Below, piece after piece: positions 4,821 to 52,247 of a DNA stretch of 64,000 nt. Under the pieces are notes generated by a model. That model did no database searches and was not told the DNA's origin. It was given only the letters and a program-made list of their open reading frames with translations. The position numbers and the translations under genes are program-made. How positions within the stretch are numbered: the stretch's first letter is position 1; every line of letters begins with the position of its first letter. This stretch comes from Micromonospora siamensis. Lineage in GTDB: Bacteria > Actinomycetota > Actinomycetes > Mycobacteriales > Micromonosporaceae. The stretch spans positions 1,302,001-1,366,000 of the forward strand of contig NZ_LT607751.1 in NCBI RefSeq assembly GCF_900090305.1, read 5' to 3'.

Positions 4821-5158
4821 ACGAGCTGGGACTGACCCGCATGGTCAAGGTCGAGGTGGTGACCCGCGCCGAGGACGCCGACGCCGTCCGCACGTTGCTG
4901 CACGCCTCCGGGGTGAGCGGCTGGACCAGCCTCAGCGGGGTCTCCGGCTTCGGCCACCACGGCACCCACGAGGGCCGGTTGCTCTTCAACGACCGCGCCG
5001 GGCTGGTGATGGTCATCGTCGTGCTGCCGTACGACCGGACCGAGGCCGTGGTCACCGGACTGCGGGACATCCTCGCGCACCGGCCGGGCGTCATGTTCGT
5101 CAGCGAGGCGTGGGTCAGCCGGCCGGACTACTTCGGCGCCGAGCAGTCGGCGGGCTGA
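4817..5158 (+). CDS. PII-like signalling protein of the Dab locus
   Basis: A 113-residue protein of PII-like size and alternating beta-alpha-beta pattern (MVKVEVVTRAEDADAVRTLL, then VMVIVVLP near residue 75). PII-like proteins of this kind (CPII types) are known next to bicarbonate transporter genes, where they bind adenine nucleotides and sense carbon status. The ATG overlaps the stop of the DabB-DabA gene (ATGA), so the two are co-translated; that context is the main support for the role. A histidine/glycine loop (GFGHHGTHEG) sits where PII T-loops vary. Ligand and target are unknown. Confidence 0.7.
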   Translation: MNELGLTRMVKVEVVTRAEDADAVRTLLHASGVSGWTSLSGVSGFGHHGTHEGRLLFNDRAGLVMVIVVLPYDRTEAVVTGLRDILAHRPGVMFVSEAWVSRPDYFGAEQSAG

Positions 5159-5170
5159 GGCCGTGGCCGT

Positions 5171-5205
5171 CCGGCCCGGTGGCGGTGGTCCCGCCGCCGG
5201 GCCGG
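5171..5205. terminator. Hairpin terminator between convergent genes
   Basis: Arms 5171-5185 and 5191-5205 pair over 15 bp with a single T-G wobble and a 5-nt loop. It lies just after the PII-like gene and abuts the end of the convergent DUF5872-like gene, so it can serve both. There is no T-tract, as is usual in high-GC actinobacteria. Confidence 0.65.
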
Positions 5206-5757
5206 TCAGCGGCGGTCGAGTTCGGACTGGAGCCGCTGGATAAGCGTCTTGCGCCCCTTGCCGTCGCGTTCGGCGCGCAGGGCCGCCTTCAGCTGGGTGG
5301 TGTCCAGGTCACGGACGTGCCGGGTGGCCTCGCTGACCGGCAGTTCGGTGAGCGACACGGCCGCGGCGGCGTCCCTGCGGGCCCGGCTGGCCGGCCCGGT
5401 GTTGGCGACGTACTGCCGGCCGGACCGCGACTCCCGGCGCTTACGGGCGTCGGTGGCGCGCTGCTGCTCGGGGGTGAGTTCCTTCCATGCCTGCTCGGGG
5501 AGGTAACGGTCGGTCTCGCCGTCGTGGCGGGCCCGGGTGGTGCCCTTGCGGGTCTGCCACTTCTGCTCGCCCCAGTGCCGCAGGGACTGCTGGCGCTCGT
5601 CGCGCGGGCCCTGGTAGCCGCCGCCGCGCTTCTGGTACTCCTTCGTGAGCAGCTGGGACTTACGGGCCGACCACTGCCCGGGCCGACCACCCCGGTCGGA
5701 CGCCTTGATCTCTTCCTTCAGCTGGTCCCGCAGCTCGGGCTTCGTGTAGCGCGCCAT
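5206..5757 (-). CDS. DUF5872-like conserved protein of unknown function
   Basis: 183 residues from the ATG at 5757. The N-terminal half carries the pattern KGGRPGQWSARKSQLL followed by EYQKRGGGYQGPR, which I associate with a widespread uncharacterised actinobacterial family (DUF5872). The protein is rich in Arg, Lys, Glu and Gln, has no membrane segment or signal peptide, and its C-terminal 60 residues look helical. Nucleic-acid association is possible from the charge but not shown. It stands alone, convergent with the carbon-uptake operon. Confidence 0.6.
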   Translation of the reverse strand: MARYTKPELRDQLKEEIKASDRGGRPGQWSARKSQLLTKEYQKRGGGYQGPRDERQQSLRHWGEQKWQTRKGTTRARHDGETDRYLPEQAWKELTPEQQRATDARKRRESRSGRQYVANTGPASRARRDAAAAVSLTELPVSEATRHVRDLDTTQLKAALRAERDGKGRKTLIQRLQSELDRR

Positions 5758-5914
5758 GTCCGGTGGGATACCCGCCGCCGGCGCGCGTACGCACCGGGCG
5801 TGGTGTCCGAGTGGGCAGGGGGACCGGCGCAGCTGTGCCCACTTGCGCACTGCGGGCCGGCGTCGGCGCGGCAGAGACTCGGGGGGATTTCGTTCCCGTC
5901 CCGAAAGGGGTGCC

Positions 5915-6469
5915 ATGTCCGTCTCACTCCGCGCACGCCGGGCGTTCACCGCGCTCTTCGCCGCCCTGCTCGCCGCGCTGAGCATCACCACCATCGCCTC
6001 GCCCGCCCAGGCGGCCGTCACCATCCAGGGCGACCGGATGATCATGAACTACACGGACTTCTGGGGAACCCACGAGGTCGGCTGGTACGACTACAAGCTG
6101 AACCTGGACTTCGTCAACAACCGGCCCAGCGTCTACGGGGCGATCCTGGCGATCCAGCCGTACAACGGGTGGAACGCGGTCGGCTACGGCAGCCAGACCC
6201 TGGTGCAGTGCACCAACGGCCTGTGGAGCGGCTCGTACTACTTCTCCCGCTGCTACGTGAAGGCCAAGATGGAGAAGCCGGGCAACGTGGTCGGCAGCAT
6301 CAGCGGCAGCTACAAGGGCGTCACCTTCAGCGGCGGGTACGACTCGGGCAGCGGCCGGTCGTACATGTTCTTCACCGGTGAGGTCACCGTCCGCCGCGAC
6401 AGCTGGGGCTCCCCGTACACCGTCTGCTACGTGTACGGCAACGCCAGGTGCCAGAACTACTTCGGCTGA
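5915..6469 (+). CDS. Secreted protein of unknown function
   Basis: 184 residues from ATG 5915, preceded by GAAAGGGG at 5903-5910. Residues 1 to about 33 are a clear Sec signal peptide (Arg-rich start, Ala/Leu core, ending SPAQA before AVTIQ). The mature part is rich in Tyr, Trp, Gly, Ser and Asn and looks beta-stranded (NYTDFWGTHEVGWYDYKL). Four cysteines (in QCTNG, SRCYV, TVCYV and ARCQN) could form two disulfides. I do not recognise the family. It is monocistronic, with a terminator directly after it. Confidence 0.65.
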   Translation: MSVSLRARRAFTALFAALLAALSITTIASPAQAAVTIQGDRMIMNYTDFWGTHEVGWYDYKLNLDFVNNRPSVYGAILAIQPYNGWNAVGYGSQTLVQCTNGLWSGSYYFSRCYVKAKMEKPGNVVGSISGSYKGVTFSGGYDSGSGRSYMFFTGEVTVRRDSWGSPYTVCYVYGNARCQNYFG

Positions 6470-10040: not shown

Positions 10041-10391
10041 ATGGACTTCGCGTTGAGCACCAGAGAGGGGCGTACCAGCACGGTGGTCGAGGTGGCCGGT
10101 GACCTGGACATGAGCACCACTCCGCAGCTGCGCGACCGGCTGGAGGCGGTGGTGGAGGCCGGCGCCCGGACGGTGGTGGTGGACCTGACCGGCGTCGGCT
10201 TCCTGGACTCCAGCGGCCTGGGCGCGCTTGTGGTCGCCCACAAGGACCTGCGCGCCCGCGACGGCTGGCTCCGGCTGGCCGGCGTCCGCCGGCCGGTACG
10301 CACGGTGTTGTCGATCACCTCGGTGGACCGGGTCATCGGCATCTTCGACACCGTGCGGGAGGCCGAGGAGGCCTCGCCCTCCGGTCCGTGA
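10041..10391 (+). CDS. STAS-domain anti-sigma factor antagonist
   Basis: 116 residues after a strong GAGGAGG (10029-10035) and ATG 10041. It is a single STAS domain of the SpoIIAA/RsbV type: GDLDMSTTPQLRDRL, then VVVDLTGVGFLDSSGLGAL with the phosphorylatable Ser in DSSG. Such proteins release anti-sigma kinases when dephosphorylated. The convergent neighbour is a SpoIIE-type phosphatase, the natural partner that would dephosphorylate it. Confidence 0.9.
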   Translation: MDFALSTREGRTSTVVEVAGDLDMSTTPQLRDRLEAVVEAGARTVVVDLTGVGFLDSSGLGALVVAHKDLRARDGWLRLAGVRRPVRTVLSITSVDRVIGIFDTVREAEEASPSGP

Positions 10392-10397
10392 GCCCGC

Positions 10398-11750
10398 TCA
10401 GCGGGGCAGGTCGCTGGCCCGGGCGGTGTCCGCGCCGGCGCTGCTGCGCCGCGGTCCCTGGTCGCCGTACCAGTCGATCATGAGTAGGGTGGCGTCGTCG
10501 GCCAGGACCGGCCCGGCGGTCGCCAGCACGGCGTCCGACAGGGCCCGGACCGCCTCGCGGGGATGCAGGTGCCCGATCCGCAGCAGCTCGGCGGGAAGGT
10601 CCAGGTCGGCGGCGTTGCGTTCGCGCATGCCGTCGGTGACGACGAGCAGCCGGTCGCCGGGGAGCAGCGCCAGCTCCGCGCTGCGGTAGCCCTCCTCGGG
10701 GAACATCCCCAGCGGGAAGTTGGCTGGCAGTTCCATCGGGGTGACCCGACCGTCGCGGACCAGCATCGGCGGAACGTGCCCGGCGTTGAGCAGTTCGCAG
10801 CGTCCGGTGGCCAGGTCGATCCGGCCGAGCACGGCGGTCATGTACGCCCCGCGCACGTTGGCGTGCTCGGCGATGGCCTGGTTGGTCTCCTTGGCCTGCC
10901 CGACCAGGCTGTCGCCCCGGCGACGGGAGTTGCGCAGGCTGCCCACGCCCAGCGTGGCGGTCAGCGCGCTGGCCACGCTGTGCCCCATCGCGTCGGTGAC
11001 GCTGAAGTGCAGCACGTCCCGGGCCACGCTGTAGTCGAAGGTGTCCCCGCCGACGCTGGCCGCCGGCTCCAGCCAGCCGGAGAGGGCGAACGCACCGGCC
11101 TCGCAGGTGAACGCCGCGGGCAGCAGCCGACGCTGGATCTCGGCCGAGAGAGTGAGCGGGGTGCTGCGCTGGCCCCACTCGAACAGGTCGGTGTGCCGAC
11201 GGTTGGCGATCACCACGAACGCCAGCGCGTGCGCGGTACGCGCGATCTGCGCCACCACCCGTGGGTCCGGCTCGGCGGGCAGACCGATCTCCAGCAGGCC
11301 GATGGCCTCGCCCCGTTCGGTGACCGGTGCCAGTACCGTCCAGCTCTCGTCACCCGGGAGGATCCGGGTGGTCTGCCGGCGCAGCGCCTGCTCGTACGGG
11401 CCGCCGTCGAAGGGAAGGACCTCGGCGGCCTCCTCACCCTGACGCCGGCCCGGGCTTGCGGTGGCCGGCTGGTGGGTCAGCCGGACCAGGGCCCGACCGT
11501 TCAGGTCGGCGATCAGCAGCGATACGTGGCGTGCCTGCAACGCCACGGCGATGGTGCCGGTGACCGCCTCGACCGCCTCGACCGGCGCGGCGTCCTCGGC
11601 CGACTGGAGCATCCCGGCCAGCACGGCCTGCTCGCCTTCCGCCACCTGGGCCGATTCGTCGAACTGCTGGGCGAGGTCGTCCAGGTACGCCACGCCACCC
11701 TGGTCCTCGACGGAGGGCTGCCCCCGTCCACTGCTCTCGTCGGCTGCCAT
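10398..11750 (-). CDS. GAF-SpoIIE (PP2C) serine phosphatase
   Basis: 450 residues from ATG 11750. Residues ~45-190 look like a GAF sensor (TGTIAVALQARHVSLLIADL; EAIGLLEIGLPAE). Residues ~210-430 are a SpoIIE/PP2C phosphatase: ASVGGDTFDYSV, SVTDAMGHSVASALTA, NAGHVPPMLVRDG and VVTDGMRERN hold the metal-binding Asp residues. It should dephosphorylate STAS anti-anti-sigma proteins, and the STAS gene lies convergently 6 bp from its end. No kinase is encoded nearby. Confidence 0.9.
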   Translation of the reverse strand: MAADESSGRGQPSVEDQGGVAYLDDLAQQFDESAQVAEGEQAVLAGMLQSAEDAAPVEAVEAVTGTIAVALQARHVSLLIADLNGRALVRLTHQPATASPGRRQGEEAAEVLPFDGGPYEQALRRQTTRILPGDESWTVLAPVTERGEAIGLLEIGLPAEPDPRVVAQIARTAHALAFVVIANRRHTDLFEWGQRSTPLTLSAEIQRRLLPAAFTCEAGAFALSGWLEPAASVGGDTFDYSVARDVLHFSVTDAMGHSVASALTATLGVGSLRNSRRRGDSLVGQAKETNQAIAEHANVRGAYMTAVLGRIDLATGRCELLNAGHVPPMLVRDGRVTPMELPANFPLGMFPEEGYRSAELALLPGDRLLVVTDGMRERNAADLDLPAELLRIGHLHPREAVRALSDAVLATAGPVLADDATLLMIDWYGDQGPRRSSAGADTARASDLPR

Positions 11751-38202: not shown

Positions 38203-38440
38203 GAGACTCCTCCAGCGGATGCCAACCCGGGTGAACCGGTGCCAGCGCGGGTCACTGCGGCCGGCCGCCGGTCGCAACCCGGGGTTCGTGTGCTCCGGGT
38301 GTGGTCCTGGGCTGGGAGAACGGCGGTCCGGGCGACGTGGGTGAACGTGGGGCACTCCCTGCCACCCCACGTAAACCCCAGGTCGCTAGACTGGGCCCTC
38401 GCGCCCCCGTAGCTAAGGGGATAGAGCATCGGTTTCCTAA
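38203..38440. repeat. Left copy of a ~240-bp direct repeat ending inside tRNA-Arg
   Basis: From GAGACTCCTCCAGCGGATGC to the anticodon loop of the broken tRNA this block matches 51971-52210 with scattered differences (my by-eye estimate is close to 88-90% identity). Similarity stops abruptly after CGGTTTCCTAA. It contains the tRNA upstream region (GGTCGCTAGACT) and the 5' half of the tRNA, and marks the left edge of the accessory block. Confidence 0.8.
38403..38440 (+). pseudogene. 5' half of tRNA-Arg(CCT)
   Basis: GCCCCCGTAGCTAAGGGGAT and AGAGCATCGGTTTCCTAA match the first half of the intact tRNA at 52172 except for one change in the D arm (CTCAGG to CTAAGG). The sequence then departs into GACGACGC, so the anticodon stem, T arm and acceptor 3' strand are missing. 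It cannot make a tRNA. Confidence 0.85.
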
Positions 38441-38638
38441 GACGACGCTCTATCTGTACCCGGAGGCTGACTACCTGCCGGTTCCTATTTTCTTTTCGTG
38501 TTAGCGGGTCGCACACGCGTGTTGCTGTGCTCGCTTGCTGAAGATCAGCAGAACGGGCTTAAGTCCTGCTCAGGCCAAGCTTCGGTCGGTCCGACGCGTC
38601 CTCACCGGGATCCGGTGAAGGTGCCGCGCCGCGTCAGT
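38441..38638. other. Intergenic between broken tRNA and retron RT end
   Basis: 198 bp with no gene seen. It lies downstream of the reverse transcriptase (minus strand) and upstream is the truncated tRNA. No integrase gene or recognisable att core beyond the tRNA break was found. Confidence 0.3.
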
Positions 38639-39952
38639 TTACGGTGTCGCGAAAGCTTGGGCCAGCAGCGTGGCGAGTTTGGCTGCGCGTGCCGGATGGT
38701 GATGGCCGACCCAGAGAACTCGTCCGATGAGGTATTGAGCAAAGTCGGGGTGGCCGGTCCGATTCTGCGCGGCCAGGCCGGTGCGGGCGGCGTTGTGGAG
38801 GATGGCGCGGAGCCGGTCGTACTCGTCGCGGGGTGTGGCGGGGTGGTGGTTGACGACGAGTCCGGCGAGGAGTTGTCGGTCGGCTCGGCTACGGACGCGG
38901 GTCTTGGCTGGATGGACTCGGAAGCCCTCGTCGCGGGCGATGTCGGTGACATCGGCGATCAGGTCGTGGATGCGGCGGGTGGTGAGGCTGCCGGAGAAGG
39001 CGAGGTCGTCGGCGTAGCGGGTGTAGGTGGTCTCGAAGGCGTCGGCGAGGCCGGTGAGGCGTCGGTCGAGTCGGTAGGCGCACAGGTTGGCCAGTGCGGG
39101 TGAGGTTGGCGCGCCTTGCGGCAAATGGCCGGTGCGCAGCGCGGCGAGCCGGGTGGCCCGGTGGGGTAGGTCGGTGGGTGCGTGGCGGAGGACGGGGTTC
39201 GGGGTGCGGGTGGTGCAGAGTCCGGTGAGGGTGTGGGCGGCTGGTTCGGGGTAGCCGGCGGTGCGGAACAGTCCATGGACGCGGGTGGCGGGGATGTGGG
39301 TGAAGAAGGCGAGCAGGTCGATCCGGACGACGACCGGCTGCGCGGTGTGGGCGGCGGCGAAGGTGTGGGCGGAGCGGCCGGGTACGAATCCGTGGGCGGC
39401 GGGGTGGACCGGGATGGGGCCGAGGACCTCGGTGAGGAGCCGGCGTTGAAGGGTGCGCAGCCGAGACTTCGGTGCCTCGATGAGCCGGCCACCCTCGGTC
39501 CAGCGGTAGTGGTAGTGGTGCAGCCGGTGGGCGGTGGCGCGTCGGTTCATGGCGCGTCGGTCGGCGTACCAGTCGAGGTGCTCGATGCTCAGGTCGAGCA
39601 TCGCGGCCAGGTCTCCGACCGTGTCGATGACCGGAGTGTGCCAGGGACGGCGGACCGTGCGGGTCGACGTCAGAGGACGCGTGTAGAGGACGATCGACCG
39701 CTGATGCTGGCGGGCGGCGGCGACTGCCGCGCGCAGCGGGTCGAGGGTGCTCAGGAACGTGGCGAGCTCGCGTGGCCGGTCGGTGGGTGGGCGTGGGTAG
39801 GCGACCAGCACCGTGTCCGCGACGGGCCACAGCCACCGCCGTCGGACCCCGAGGACGAGCCCACCCTGGTCAACGAGATCGGCGCGGCGCCATCCGTCGC
39901 CGGCGAGGAACGCGTCGGCGAGCGCGGTGGCCAGGGCGTGGATGGTGGTCAC
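38639..39952 (-). CDS. Retron-type reverse transcriptase with N-terminal extension
   Basis: 437 residues from GTG 39952. The RT domain begins near residue 112 and shows D212 in RIDLLAFFTHI, LPQGAPTSP (277-285), the active site YADD (313-316) and AKTRV; LLAGLVVN (361-368) occupies the place of the retron VTGLVVN motif, followed by PRDEYDRLRAILH. RTs of this type copy part of their own ncRNA into msDNA. That ncRNA is seen directly upstream. The first ~110 residues (MTTIHALATALADAF onward, with SIVLYTRPL) are not RT and not recognised. No separate effector gene follows. The ribosome site is weak, so the start could be earlier. Confidence 0.88.
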   Translation of the reverse strand: MTTIHALATALADAFLAGDGWRRADLVDQGGLVLGVRRRWLWPVADTVLVAYPRPPTDRPRELATFLSTLDPLRAAVAAARQHQRSIVLYTRPLTSTRTVRRPWHTPVIDTVGDLAAMLDLSIEHLDWYADRRAMNRRATAHRLHHYHYRWTEGGRLIEAPKSRLRTLQRRLLTEVLGPIPVHPAAHGFVPGRSAHTFAAAHTAQPVVVRIDLLAFFTHIPATRVHGLFRTAGYPEPAAHTLTGLCTTRTPNPVLRHAPTDLPHRATRLAALRTGHLPQGAPTSPALANLCAYRLDRRLTGLADAFETTYTRYADDLAFSGSLTTRRIHDLIADVTDIARDEGFRVHPAKTRVRSRADRQLLAGLVVNHHPATPRDEYDRLRAILHNAARTGLAAQNRTGHPDFAQYLIGRVLWVGHHHPARAAKLATLLAQAFATP

Positions 39953-39966
39953 GATCGGGCCGGTGG

Positions 39967-40139
39967 TGGCAGCGTGTCCCGACGATGCCCGGTCGTGCGG
40001 GTGCACAGGCTCGCGGAGCGTGCCGACGCACCTGTGGTGTGGTGCCGAGGTGAGTATCGCGTCCCCGGGGTTGCCCCGGAGAGACCGTGACCGGACCCCA
40101 CGCGGGGGACCGGCCTGGTCAGCTCGGGACACGCTGCCA
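39967..40139 (-). ncRNA. Retron msr-msd RNA with a1/a2 inverted repeat
   Basis: The 173-nt segment just upstream of the RT is bounded by a perfect 16-nt inverted repeat: TGGCAGCGTGTCCCGA read on the minus strand from 40139 (a1) and its complement at 39967-39982 (a2). Right after a1 comes AGC, where retrons place the branching guanosine; here it would be the base opposite 40123. Two msr-like hairpins follow (40091-40113, CCGG/CCCC arms; 40062-40082, 9 bp with a 3-nt loop), then a probable msd region with a hairpin at 40004-40036. The order a1-msr-msd-a2-RT matches known retrons. Confidence 0.8.
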
Positions 40140-40240
40140 TGGGAGCAGCGTAGAGAACGGAGACCGCGATCGGTGTCCGCGATGCGTGTGGCGCGGCGCA
40201 AAGAACCGTTTCGCCGAGTGATGCGTCCTAACCTTGCGTG
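40140..40240. promoter_or_regulatory. Divergent promoter region: retron ncRNA / ECF sigma operon
   Basis: GAACC (40203-40207) and CGTCC (40224-40228), 16 bp apart, resemble an ECF-type promoter reading toward the sigma gene; the ATG lies 12 bp beyond the -10 element, so the mRNA would be almost leaderless. The same 100 bp must also hold the minus-strand promoter for the retron RNA, whose elements I could not single out. Confidence 0.45.
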
Positions 40241-40774
40241 ATGGACGTGGACGACGAGGAGCTGTTGCGCCTCGTCGGGAAGGGTGACCGCGGGGCGTTC
40301 GACGTGCTGTATGCGCGTAACGCGCCGTGGTTGGTGCTGCGTCTGCGCCGCCGGTGCCGGGATCCGGAGTTGGTCCGGGAGGTGGTGCAGGAGACGTTCC
40401 TGACGGTGTGGCGGGCCGCGGCCGGCTACCGCGGGGACGGTGCCGCGGTGGGCTGGCTGTGGTCCGTGGCCGCCGGTCGGCTGATCGACGCGCGGCGTCG
40501 CGCGTTGGCCCGTCCGCAGAGTGCGGGGGCGCCGGGTGACGACGTGTTGGCGTGGTCTCCGTCGGCGGAGGACGAGGTCTTGGCGGGCGCGTATGACGCC
40601 GAGTTGGAGCGTGCGCTGCATCGGCTTGCTCCGGAGTTGCGGGCGGTGTTGCAGGCGACGGTGCTGGACGGCCTGACGGTGCGGGAAGCCGCGGTGTTGC
40701 TGGGTGTGCCGGAGGGCACGGTGAAGACCCGGGCGATGCGAGCGCGCCGCGAGTTGAGGGAGGCCCTGTCGTGA
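40241..40774 (+). CDS. ECF RNA polymerase sigma factor
   Basis: 177 residues from ATG 40241 (GTG 40238 is an alternative). Region 2: ELVREVVQETFLTVWRAAAG and VGWLWSVAAGRLIDARRRAL; region 4: LDGLTVREAAVLLGVPEGTV then KTRAMRARRELREAL. It heads an operon with a zf-HC2 anti-sigma protein and an ABC transporter, all overlapping by 4 bp. An ECF-like promoter in front suggests autoregulation. Confidence 0.9.
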   Translation: MDVDDEELLRLVGKGDRGAFDVLYARNAPWLVLRLRRRCRDPELVREVVQETFLTVWRAAAGYRGDGAAVGWLWSVAAGRLIDARRRALARPQSAGAPGDDVLAWSPSAEDEVLAGAYDAELERALHRLAPELRAVLQATVLDGLTVREAAVLLGVPEGTVKTRAMRARRELREALS

Positions 40775-41556
40775 CCGGGTTCCACATCGACGCCGGGGTG
40801 CTGGCGGCGTACGCCGAAGGCGACCTCGCTGACGTTGACGCGTGGTCGGTGGAGGCGCACCTCGACCGTTGTGTGGACTGCCGGACGAGCATCGCACCGG
40901 ACGCATCCACGGCCCTGGTGGTGGAGGCGGTCGCGGTATCACTGGGCAGCCGATTGCCGACGCAAGGGCGGGTGCGGCAGACGACCGGGTGGCGGCGAAT
41001 CAGGGTGTTGGTGGGTGCGGGGCCCGCAGCGCGTGCGGCGTGGTTGCTGTCGGTGGCCGTCACCGGGATGATCACCGCGGGGTTGGCGGTCAGCCCGACG
41101 GTGGTTCCGCCGTGGTTGCTCCTGCTGATCGCGCCGGCACTGCCCGCTGTCGGTACGGCCCTGTCGTACGGGCGGCGAACTGATCCACTGCACGAGTTGA
41201 TCGCGGGGACACCGCAGGGCGGCCTGCGCATCGTTCTGTGGCGCACGTTGACGGTCCTTGCGGTCGCGGCGCCCGTAGCGGTCCTGGCTGGCGCGGTGAC
41301 GGGCATCGGTACGCCTGGGCTGTGGCTGCTTCCCTGTGTCGCGTTGACGGTCCTGACGCTGGCGCTCGGCTCGCTGATCGAGCCCGCGTACGCCGCGCTC
41401 GCGGTGGCGAGCGCGTGGGCGGTGGTGGTGCTGGCACCGCCGGTCGGCGGTGTGGCAGTCCTGGTGTCGAGCGGTCCGGGGTGGCTGGGCGTCACCGCGG
41501 TGGCCGCGGCGGTGGTGTATGTGCGTCGGGAACGGGTGGGAAGGCAACCGGCATGA
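40771..41556 (+). CDS. zf-HC2 anti-sigma-like membrane protein
   Basis: 261 residues from GTG 40771, overlapping the sigma stop. N-terminal zinc-finger anti-sigma part with AHLDRCVDC (HxxxCxxC), then six or so membrane helices (AAWLLSVAVTGMITAGLAVS; LWLLPCVALTVLTLALGSLI). It should sequester the adjacent ECF factor at the membrane. The many helices suggest it may also work with the ABC transporter that follows. Confidence 0.85.
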   Translation: MTGFHIDAGVLAAYAEGDLADVDAWSVEAHLDRCVDCRTSIAPDASTALVVEAVAVSLGSRLPTQGRVRQTTGWRRIRVLVGAGPAARAAWLLSVAVTGMITAGLAVSPTVVPPWLLLLIAPALPAVGTALSYGRRTDPLHELIAGTPQGGLRIVLWRTLTVLAVAAPVAVLAGAVTGIGTPGLWLLPCVALTVLTLALGSLIEPAYAALAVASAWAVVVLAPPVGGVAVLVSSGPGWLGVTAVAAAVVYVRRERVGRQPA

Positions 41557-42308
41557 CGACGGTGAGCGTCGACGGGCTGCGGGTCAGCTACGGCAAGCGA
41601 GTCGTCTTCGACGACCTGGACCTCGATCTCGGTGTGGGGGTGCATGGGTTGCTCGGCCCGAACGGCGCCGGTAAGACCACCCTCATGCGGGTCCTGGCCA
41701 CGGTGCTGCGACCTGACCGAGGTGACGTCCGGCTGCTGGGCCACCGCATCGGCGACCCCGCGGCATTGCGGCAGGCGCGCCGCCAACTGGGTTACCTGCC
41801 GCAGGCATTCGGGTTCTACCCGCGCTTCACCGTGCGCGAGTTTGTCGAGTACTTCGCCTGGCTGAAGGAGATGCCTCCGGCGCGGATCCCGCTGGCGGTG
41901 GACCGGGCGATCGAGCGGGTCGGCCTGCTGGAGCGCGCCGACGACCGGATGAAGCACCTCTCCGGCGGGATGCTGCGCCGCGCCGGCATCGCCCAGGCCA
42001 TCGTGAACGACCCTCGGCTGCTGCTGTTGGACGAGCCGACCGCCGGTCTGGACCCGGAGCAGCGGGTGCAGTTTCGGGCGCTGCTGCGGGAACTGGGCCT
42101 CGATACGGTCGTTCTGGTCAGCACGCATCTGGTCGAGGACGTCGTCGCGGCGTGCACCCGGGTGAACCTGCTCGACGGCGGGCGGCTGGTCTTCACCGGC
42201 CTTCCCGACGAGCTGATCGCCGCCGGTGGGGACGGCGACAGCGGCGACTCCCCGATTGAGCGGGGCTACACGGCGGTGCTGCGGGGCGCGCGGACGGCAC
42301 CGCGGTGA
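41553..42308 (+). CDS. ABC transporter ATP-binding protein
   Basis: 251 residues from ATG 41553 (ATGA overlap). Walker A GPNGAGKTTL, Q-loop YLPQAFGFYP, signature LSGGMLRRAGIAQA, Walker B LLLLDEPTAGLDPEQ and H-loop STHLVED are all intact. It resembles ATPases of two-component exporters of the drug or bacteriocin-immunity kind. Its permease partner is the next gene, which is broken by an insertion, so the transporter is probably not functional now. Confidence 0.92.
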   Translation: MTTVSVDGLRVSYGKRVVFDDLDLDLGVGVHGLLGPNGAGKTTLMRVLATVLRPDRGDVRLLGHRIGDPAALRQARRQLGYLPQAFGFYPRFTVREFVEYFAWLKEMPPARIPLAVDRAIERVGLLERADDRMKHLSGGMLRRAGIAQAIVNDPRLLLLDEPTAGLDPEQRVQFRALLRELGLDTVVLVSTHLVEDVVAACTRVNLLDGGRLVFTGLPDELIAAGGDGDSGDSPIERGYTAVLRGARTAPR

Positions 42309-42547
42309 GGCGCGCGCTGAGGGTGGAGCTACGCCGGGGTACTGCACCACTTGCTGCGGTGGCGATGTTCGGTGCCGGAGTGTGGATGCTGGCCGTGCAC
42401 CCGGACGACTGGGCCGGCCGGTGGGCGGGCCTCGCCAACTACCTGCGGGTGTCGCTGCTGATCCTGTGCGCTCTCATGATCGCTGCCGGGGCGTGGCATG
42501 CCGGCCGGGAACGGCGGCGCGACATCGACGAGCTGATCGCCTTGGTC
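42305..42547 (+). pseudogene. ABC permease, truncated by IS701-type insertion
   Basis: The frame opens at GTG 42305 (overlap with the ATPase stop) and reads a permease N-terminus: RRALRVELRRGTAPLAAVAM, one helix, WAGRWAGLANYLRVSLLILC, a second helix, and AGRERRRDIDELIALVG. It then runs into transposase sequence at about 42547. No continuation is found to the right of the element, so the rest of the permease is lost. Confidence 0.8.
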
Positions 42548-50675: not shown

Positions 50676-51976
50676 TGCGACCGATCGCCCTTTCCGAAGT
50701 TGTGGCTACTGAACCGCGGCGGGTCCACGCCCCTTGACCAGCACGAGCGGAAAGGGTGATGCCCGATGGGCAGCCTGTGGGCCGGCGTCGACGTCGGCAA
50801 GACCCACCACCACGTGTGCGTCGTCGTCGACGACGGCACCGTTGTCCTGTCCGAGAAGATCCCCAACGACCAGCAGGCCATCTCCGGCATCGCCGGGCGG
50901 CTCGGCAAACGCCGCAAGCCGATCCGCTGGGCCGTCGACCTGCGCGGCGGACCCGCGTCGCTGTTGCTTGCGGTCCTGCTCGACCGGGGCGCGGACGTGC
51001 GCTACGTCAGCGGCACGGTCACCTCGCGGATGGCGGAGGCGTTCCACGGCGAACGCAAGACCGATGCCCACGACGCCTACGTCATCGCCCAGACCCTGCG
51101 CATGCGCGCCGATCTACCGACCCTCACCCTCGCGGACGGGGTGCAGCAGCAGCTGAAGCTGCACGTCTCCCGCCGCCTCGACCTGGTCGCCGACCGGGTC
51201 CGCATCACCGCCCGCATCCAGGACCTCCTGACCATGATCAGCCCCGCCCTGGAGAAGACGCTGAACCTGCGCAGTAAAGGTGCGCTGCGGCTGCTCGCGC
51301 AGTGGCAGACCCCTGGCGGGCTGCGCCGCGCCGGCGAAGCCCGCATCCTGGCCTACCTGCGCCAGCACGGCGTGCGGGCAGCCAAGGCACTCACCACCAA
51401 AGTCCTCGCCGCCGCGCGCACGCAGACCGTCGCCGTCGCGGGGGAGACCACCGCGGCCGGGATCGTGGCGCAGATGGCCACCGATCTGGAAGCGGTCAAC
51501 GACCGCATCACCGCCATCGAAGAAACCATCGCCGCGGTTGTCGCCGAGCACGAACTGGGCGAGATCGTCACCAGCCTGCCCGGCATCGGCACCACCCTCG
51601 CCGCCGAGTTCCTCGCCCACGCCGGCACCCTCACCACCTACACCAGCCCCGCGGCACTCGCCGCCCATGCCGGCCTCGCCCCGATCTCCCGAGACTCCGG
51701 ACGCCGGCAAGGTCATCAGATCCGGCCGCACCGTTACCACCGGGGTCTACGCCGGGTGTTCAGCATGTCCAGCTTCACCGCCCTGACCCACTGCCCACGA
51801 TCCCGCGCCTACTACGACAAGAAGAGAGCCGAAGGAAAGACCCACCGCCAAGCCACTGCCGCCCTGTCCAGACAACGCCTCAACGTCCTCTGGGCCTGCA
51901 TTCGCGACAAGACCTCCTACCAGCCCAAACAACCAAGATCAGCAGAGCTGGCGCCATGCGAACTCGCGTAGAGACT
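50676..51976 (+). mobile_element. Complete IS110-family insertion sequence
   Basis: Boundaries are inferred by comparison: the left flank ends ATGGAGACT (50667-50675) and the right end is GTAGAGACT (51968-51976) followed by CCTCCAGCGG. The repeat copy at 38200-38218 reads ATGGAGACT then CCTCCAGCGG without the element, giving the empty site. The element is about 1.3 kb, has no terminal inverted repeats, and its target core is the shared GAGACT (IS110 elements favour a short core such as CT). The non-coding left end is only ~90 nt and the transposase stop reaches the right end. Confidence 0.75.
50766..51971 (+). CDS. IS110-family DEDD transposase
   Basis: 401 residues from ATG 50766, with GCGGAAAGG ahead. 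N-terminal RuvC-like DEDD domain: AGVDVGKTHHHV (first Asp), VDLRGGPASLLLAVL and ERKTDAHDAYVIAQTLRM (further acidic residues), a coiled-coil middle, and the C-terminal Tnp domain LPGIGTTLAAEFLAHAGTL with RVFSMSSF supplying the catalytic Ser. It appears intact. A truncated sister copy lies at 27231-27909. Confidence 0.92.
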   Translation: MGSLWAGVDVGKTHHHVCVVVDDGTVVLSEKIPNDQQAISGIAGRLGKRRKPIRWAVDLRGGPASLLLAVLLDRGADVRYVSGTVTSRMAEAFHGERKTDAHDAYVIAQTLRMRADLPTLTLADGVQQQLKLHVSRRLDLVADRVRITARIQDLLTMISPALEKTLNLRSKGALRLLAQWQTPGGLRRAGEARILAYLRQHGVRAAKALTTKVLAAARTQTVAVAGETTAAGIVAQMATDLEAVNDRITAIEETIAAVVAEHELGEIVTSLPGIGTTLAAEFLAHAGTLTTYTSPAALAAHAGLAPISRDSGRRQGHQIRPHRYHRGLRRVFSMSSFTALTHCPRSRAYYDKKRAEGKTHRQATAALSRQRLNVLWACIRDKTSYQPKQPRSAELAPCELA

Positions 51977-52210
51977 CCTCCAGCGGATGCCAACCGGGGT
52001 GAACCGGTGCCACCGCGTGTCACCACGGCCGACCGCCGGTCGCAAACCGGGGTTCGTGTGCTCGGGGTGTGCTCCTGGGCTGCGACAACGGCGGTCCGGG
52101 GAACCTGGGTGAACCCGGGCCACTCCCTGCCACCCCAGCTGAACCCCCAGGTCGCTAGACTAGGCGCTCGCGCCCCCGTAGCTCAGGGGATAGAGCATCG
52201 GTTTCCTAAA
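51971..52210. repeat. Right copy of the ~240-bp direct repeat leading into tRNA-Arg
   Basis: Matches 38203-38440 from GAGACTCCTCCAGCGG through CGGTTTCCTAA. Unlike the left copy, it continues into the complete tRNA. The two copies bound about 13.8 kb of accessory DNA. Confidence 0.8.
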
Positions 52211-52247
52211 CCGTGTGTCGCAGGTTCGAATCCTGCCGGGGGCACCA
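52172..52247 (+). tRNA. tRNA-Arg(CCT)
   Basis: A 76-nt cloverleaf: acceptor GCCCCCG (52172-52178) pairs with CGGGGGC (52237-52243), D arm GCTCAGGGGATAGAGC, anticodon loop TTCCTAA with CCT at 52205-52207, T arm CAGGTTCGAATCCTG, and an encoded CCA (52245-52247). The 27-43 pair appears to be a mismatch. It reads AGG arginine codons. The 5' half is duplicated in broken form at 38403. Confidence 0.95.

Follow-up and report, generated by a model that had tools for sequence, protein, structure and literature searches.

A likely retron with a readable msr-msd RNA upstream of a reverse transcriptase gene in Micromonospora siamensis

Retrons are small machines thought to copy part of their own RNA into short single-stranded DNA; most work on them has been done in enterobacteria, and their make-up is described as tripartite. 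The question raised here is whether a reverse transcriptase (RT) gene in the genome of Micromonospora siamensis (6.25 Mb, single contig, with other Micromonospora as its relatives) and the repeat-framed stretch upstream of it form such an element and, if so, what accompanies them. The window analyzed is a stretch of 64,000 nucleotides (nt) of contig NZ_LT607751.1 (positions 1,302,001 to 1,366,000), and all coordinates refer to it (Table 1). A first-pass annotation had proposed a retron whose msr-msd RNA can be read directly, and both the placement of the RT and the covariation of the RNA support that proposal; taken as a whole, the locus is very probably a retron, belonging to a large clade whose members are mainly actinomycetes.

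The repeat, the AGC, the hairpins, and the RT are confirmed where the annotation had placed them. Repeats a1 and a2, said to be a perfect 16-nt inverted repeat framing 173 nt, are complementary at 16 of 16 positions; the AGC described as directly following a1 is present (40124-40122), but its A is the final base of a1. The folding energy of the 173-nt stretch is −104.8 kcal/mol (z = −3.94; 0/200 shuffles as low), and the retron order that had been read from the letters, two msr hairpins (SL1 and SL2) followed by an msd hairpin, is borne out by fold and covariation alike. TANNNT occurs within the 25 nt immediately preceding the RNA in 60/93 loci, against 3/93 in a control stretch (−60 to −36). 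Rfam returned only a tRNA at gathering scores, with no retron-like family, and nothing up to E = 1 for 39900-40200.

In GC-rich DNA, one inverted repeat alone is not strong evidence, because a stem score of 40 is also reached at 19 of 388 control places taken from related loci (best control, 71), compared with 63 of 97 RT starts. Chance is excluded because the RNA is conserved and covaries in relatives. Among Micromonospora relatives, conservation extends over the whole unit, a1 through a2, and the sequence upstream of a1 diverges. Compensatory changes in the a1/a2 stem turn A-T into G-C at three loci (L003, L004, and L005) and T-A into C-G at two (L024 and L025). From 97 RT loci, drawn from the order and beyond, alignment A2 kept the 79 with a plausible repeat (18 were dropped beforehand). 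RNAalifold gave 28 pairs for these 79 sequences, 23 of them with changes on both sides; 92.0% of cells were paired, versus 72.6% in shuffles and 35 to 47% with partners slid by 1 to 3 columns, and the covariation score was 0.491 versus 0.168 in shuffles (0/500 as high). Most of this signal comes from the internal helices, on which the choice of sequences did not depend. Of the two checks that the annotation had set for itself, covariation of a1/a2 is present, with very strong covariation of the internal helices, and the RT groups with retrons, apart from group II introns (see below). The G after a1 is invariant (79/79), with A (48), C (20), G (9), or T (2) as the next base, and across the wider clade, the AGC of the window becomes AG or GG followed by A or C. 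A candidate priming guanosine is present in the AGC after a1; priming itself is predicted.

The tip of the msd hairpin points to a loop that may act as DNA. Across its seven columns, the tip is GCUNCGC in 80/92 relatives and C-UNC-G in 82/92 (N = C in 67, U in 9, G in 4, and A in 2); beside N, U stands in 84/92 and C in 90/92, and N itself is C in only 70/92. On a tree of 46 rows, the passage of N to U needs at least 5 changes and that to G needs 4, at least 3 of which are forced by starred branches. As complementary DNA (cDNA), the tip reads d(GC-GNA-GC) with a variable N. A passage of PMC4686876 ascribes extraordinary stability and nuclease resistance to mini-hairpins that combine a GNA loop with two or more G-C pairs, and has GCGAAGC, with a G-A pair in its loop, melting near 78°C. 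A fixed UNC with a free N is the pattern that would be expected if the loop works as DNA, and the GNA tip may be read as a sign that the msd stretch acts as DNA. We know of no RNA loop rule that would demand UNC with a free N. The SL2 loop, expected to remain RNA, has no GNA-type motif.

In a tree built without any diversity-generating retroelement (DGR) or abortive infection (Abi) RT, the window RT lies inside the retron RTs, with the group II introns apart (support, 100/100; branch length, 2.67); grouping with group II intron RTs was found neither there nor by profile (44.8 bits; cut-off, 300). Among solved structures, the best sequence matches were retron RTs in 14/14 cases, and in the fold search retron RTs filled the top 18 rows of Foldseek and the top 14 of VIA, with DGR and group II RTs lower. 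The PADLOC profiles RT_other (572 bits) and RT_outgroup (534 bits) scored best, followed by RT_XIII (302 bits); both leading models match 54/54 relatives, which many other retron models match too. The RT group is already catalogued in PADLOC, since RT_outgroup (PDLC03740, labelled retron) and RT_other (PDLC02949) both match the window RT over its full length; these profiles carry no effector, type, RNA, or function. The next-best profiles represent types XIII and III-A (235 bits for the latter), whose partner genes are not found beside the RTs of the window clade. For type III-A, this partner is presumably a phosphoribosyltransferase; a phosphoribosyltransferase stands beside the Rhizobium reference RT. 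Myxobacterial retrons of the Mx162 kind are similar in having an N-terminally extended RT and stable inheritance, and we know of no effector for them. Retron-Eco1 (Ec86) differs from the window retron in having a partner effector (7v9x is its complex with the effector), none having been found in the window clade, and in the N-terminal RT extension of the window retron.

Both YADD and LAGLVVN, noticed at first reading, are in the RT of 437 amino acids (aa). The list of open reading frames (ORFs) holds a longer, 767-aa frame from 40942; comparison with relatives places the RT start more probably at about 39952. Residues 1 to approximately 100 form a helical N-terminal extension, which has no Pfam match and gave a poor model on its own (predicted local distance difference test, 54). 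Six g271 RTs lack the extension and are only 334 to 341 aa long because the RNA occupies the place where it would be encoded; the extension is therefore not a universal effector. In region Y, LAG replaces VTG, and its G is conserved in at least 90% of relatives; in region X, FAAAH replaces NAXXH, the A and H being kept, the N replaced, and H202 invariant. The RT is under purifying selection, the ratio of nonsynonymous to synonymous rates (dN/dS) being 0.23 to 0.27 between the window and 11 Micromonospora relatives and 0.21, 0.24, 0.29, 0.35, and 0.65 in five other pairs.

Within the genus, 22/151 genomes match the RT at E values up to 1e−30, 13 of them full-length and open; the other matches are broken or partial. 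The PADLOC profile was found in 5/396 genomes of the phylum and in 92/397 of the order Mycobacteriales (27/85 genera), the 92 including at least two with fragments only (G009 and G050) and three with weak matches only (G071, G104, and G712), of which G071 and G712 fall in another RT group in the tree. Covariance model R1 matched 92 of the 96 RT loci besides the window, including 14 of 18 left out of training; the 4 missed (L169 to L172) have RTs of another group. Genome-wide, R1 matched 33 of 121 genomes of the order, with 32 matches beside an RT (no more than ~210 nt from it or overlapping with the profile match) on the same strand; the exception, in G589, is found 142 nt from the end of a contig. 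Of these 33 genomes, 25 were in the training set, and the other 8 comprise 7 with a match beside an RT plus G589. At least two RT-bearing genomes lack an RNA match (G009, a fragment, and G548), the 68 genomes without an R1 match not having been itemized. RNA and RT share a strand in all 92 loci checked, and the gap between them is −3 to 30 nt in 77/92, partly by construction, as the first start codon after the RNA was chosen; protein alignment, an independent view, also has the RNA ending a few nucleotides before the RT start in most loci. The R1 RNA also precedes the RT on a Tsukamurella plasmid (75.5 bits) and those on two Burkholderia plasmids (49.5 and 45.0 bits). The Burkholderia RTs (L184 and L185) are 50 to 51% identical to the window RT and have the same RNA, a case of transfer across phyla.

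ORF clustering and a short-frame search found no gene besides the RT shared across the clade within ~5 kb. For 27 loci with ORFs of at least 70 aa, the largest cluster after the RT has 7 members; for 97 loci with ORFs of at least 80 aa, the next cluster (14 members) consists of ABC-type ATPases at scattered places, followed by syntenic neighbors within one genus (13 loci of g264 and 5 of g271), which imply stable chromosomal inheritance there. Short frames (at least 25 aa) in 1.2-kb flanks gave 20 cross-family pairs among 194 flanks; 6 involve L012 (Klenkia; family unlabelled, probably that of its matches), 5 join L104 with g271 loci through an error-prone DNA polymerase, and 3 are L169 to L171, of the other RT group. 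That the upstream gene shared by L169 to L171 was picked up shows that the method is able to detect a shared partner. Neither a conserved partner gene nor a fused effector domain of the tripartite types (I to XIII) was found in the clade, and membership in a typed tripartite retron is not shown.

Three observations were made on the side. L169 to L172 represent another actinomycete RT group without the R1 RNA, and the upstream gene that L169 to L171 have in common across families is a possible partner. The error-prone DNA polymerase gene precedes the retron, in the same orientation, in 7/97 loci (L104, L105, L118, L122, L130, L133, and L135), spanning three genera and two families, and is the sole cross-family exception; NCBIfam PRK05672 was the best match to its 330-aa pieces but scored below cut-off. 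Thiolase-type genes of one cluster occur upstream of the retron in two distant groups (L056, L064, L059, and L109).

Several points weigh against reading the locus as a retron of this kind. The 79 aligned sequences were picked for an a1/a2-like repeat, a selection that favors a1/a2 pairing. The exact VTG and NAXXH motifs are both missing from the window RT; in passages of published work, 47% of 102 retron-like RTs are reported to have the exact VTG (PMC4244168), and 2/16 validated RTs also have the N of NAXXH replaced (PMC6868368). NCBIfam retron models score below their cut-offs (154.7/600, 148.7/235, and 140.7/450 bits), and the tree gives weak support (83/95) for where the clade belongs among retrons. 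The UNC tip is absent from 10/92 relatives, and 15 loci are the basis for calling N free. R1 finds no RNA at the Methylobacterium and Herpetosiphon relatives. At L112, the RNA match (10229-10403; 57 bits) and the RT (4998-6350) are 3.9 kb apart, with ABC-type genes in between.

Other explanations share part of this evidence. The RNA could be the template or cofactor of another RT system, similar to DRT2 or DRT9, with neither 2′-5′ priming nor multicopy single-stranded DNA (msDNA); non-retron RTs with structured upstream RNAs exist, and DRT2 and DRT9 chains appear in the fold list, yet we give this very little credence. It is about equally hard to credit that the RNA is solely a regulatory leader of the RT mRNA: its covariation would be compatible with a leader, and in most loci it stops a few nucleotides short of the RT start, but it has a −10 box of its own at a1, and its tip, fixed as UNC with a free N, suits a GNA loop made of DNA and no RNA loop known to us.

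That the locus is a retron whose effector is the neighboring operon (40238-42540) of an extracytoplasmic function (ECF) sigma factor, a zf-HC2 anti-sigma factor, and ABC genes is improbable. Pfam matches support the identities of these genes, and the segment is found together with the retron at 4 further Micromonospora loci (G110, G139, G127, and G047); however, it clusters with the RT in those loci only and nowhere else, and in the other Micromonospora copies compared, homology reaches no further than about the start of the sigma gene, so that the operon is rejected as a general effector. A hitch-hiking, decaying remnant without present function would fit the broken or partial matches within the genus, but an RT dN/dS near 0.25 and the conserved place of the element in the g264 and g271 loci speak against it, and we regard it as a slim prospect.

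The surroundings bear on mobility in Micromonospora, where homology among several loci is confined to ~2 kb (window 38214-40198). The conserved tail behind the RT ends in half a tRNA gene which, with ~190 bp of upstream DNA, duplicates the stretch ahead of the intact tRNA; promoter and 5′ half of tRNA-Arg(CCT) are present twice (38210-38440 and 51978-52247). The half tRNA borders the retron tail; 13.8 kb separate it from the intact gene, which is preceded by an IS110-type transposase gene. Several Micromonospora copies have similar layouts of half and intact tRNA.

Table 1. Coordinates of features in the window
Feature	Position	Strand	Remarks
Retron-type RT, 437 aa, YADD	38639-39952	minus	GTG at 39952; stop ends at 38639
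msr-msd RNA, 173 nt	39967-40139	minus	R1, 113.2 bits (window is one of the 79 sequences behind the model); repeats, fold, covariation
a1 repeat	40124-40139	minus	16/16 complementary to a2
a2 repeat	39967-39982	minus	16/16 complementary to a1
G of AGC, predicted branch point	40123	minus	invariant 79/79 (alignment column 32)
msr hairpin SL1	40083-40120	minus	5/5 consensus pairs changed on both sides
msr hairpin SL2, CUCCGGGG-CAA-CCCCGGGG	40063-40081	minus	8 pairs, 5 changed on both sides; 99.2% of cells paired
msd hairpin	39994-40036	minus	helices 4 and 5: 9/11 pairs changed on both sides; 88% of cells paired
msd tip GCUCCGC	40013-40019	minus	cDNA d(GCGGAGC), GNA minihairpin motif
Putative upper limit of reverse-transcribed stretch, 80 nt, SL2 to a2	39983-40062	minus	from retron anatomy
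−10-like TACGCT	40147-40152	minus	8 to 13 nt before a1
Conserved non-coding tail behind RT	38405-38638	not assigned	ends in 5′ half of tRNA-Arg(CCT) gene
IS110-type transposase gene	50766-51971		before intact tRNA
Intact tRNA-Arg(CCT)	52172-52247		

For the favored reading, a retron, the following course is proposed. Judging from the −10 box, a promoter just upstream of a1 would start the RNA; a1 would pair with a2, and two hairpins would form the msr. By analogy with known retrons, the RT would prime at the 2′-OH of the invariant G (G40123) after a1 and copy the msd hairpin toward SL2. The product would be a branched RNA-DNA molecule, in which DNA of at most ~80 nt would form a long hairpin with a nuclease-resistant d(GC-GNA-GC) minihairpin as its cap. 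As no partner gene is shared, the RT-RNA-DNA particle would act alone or with an effector encoded elsewhere. Given a retron, analogy would make a sensor role linked to phage or DNA damage the most likely one, and we lean toward it; our best guess is a role as sensor or inhibitor connected with phage or DNA damage, with an effector that would be unlinked or absent. More tentatively, and as a view we do not quite favor, these may be widespread, largely chromosomal Mycobacteriales retrons without a linked effector, with a predicted GNA-capped msDNA and with the particle or stable DNA as the working product rather than as a toxin guard.

A literature survey, which was not exhaustive and is no proof of absence, found no description of the RNA of the clade, its breadth, its missing linked effector, or the GNA tip. 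The absence of a clade-wide partner gene is unusual for a retron, and the clade allows a direct test of retron action without one. It comes with a ready covariance model (R1), its RTs are adapted to high-GC hosts and are candidates for DNA production, and the d(GC-GNA-GC) tip, if formed as predicted, would be a natural nuclease-resistant cap for retron DNA.
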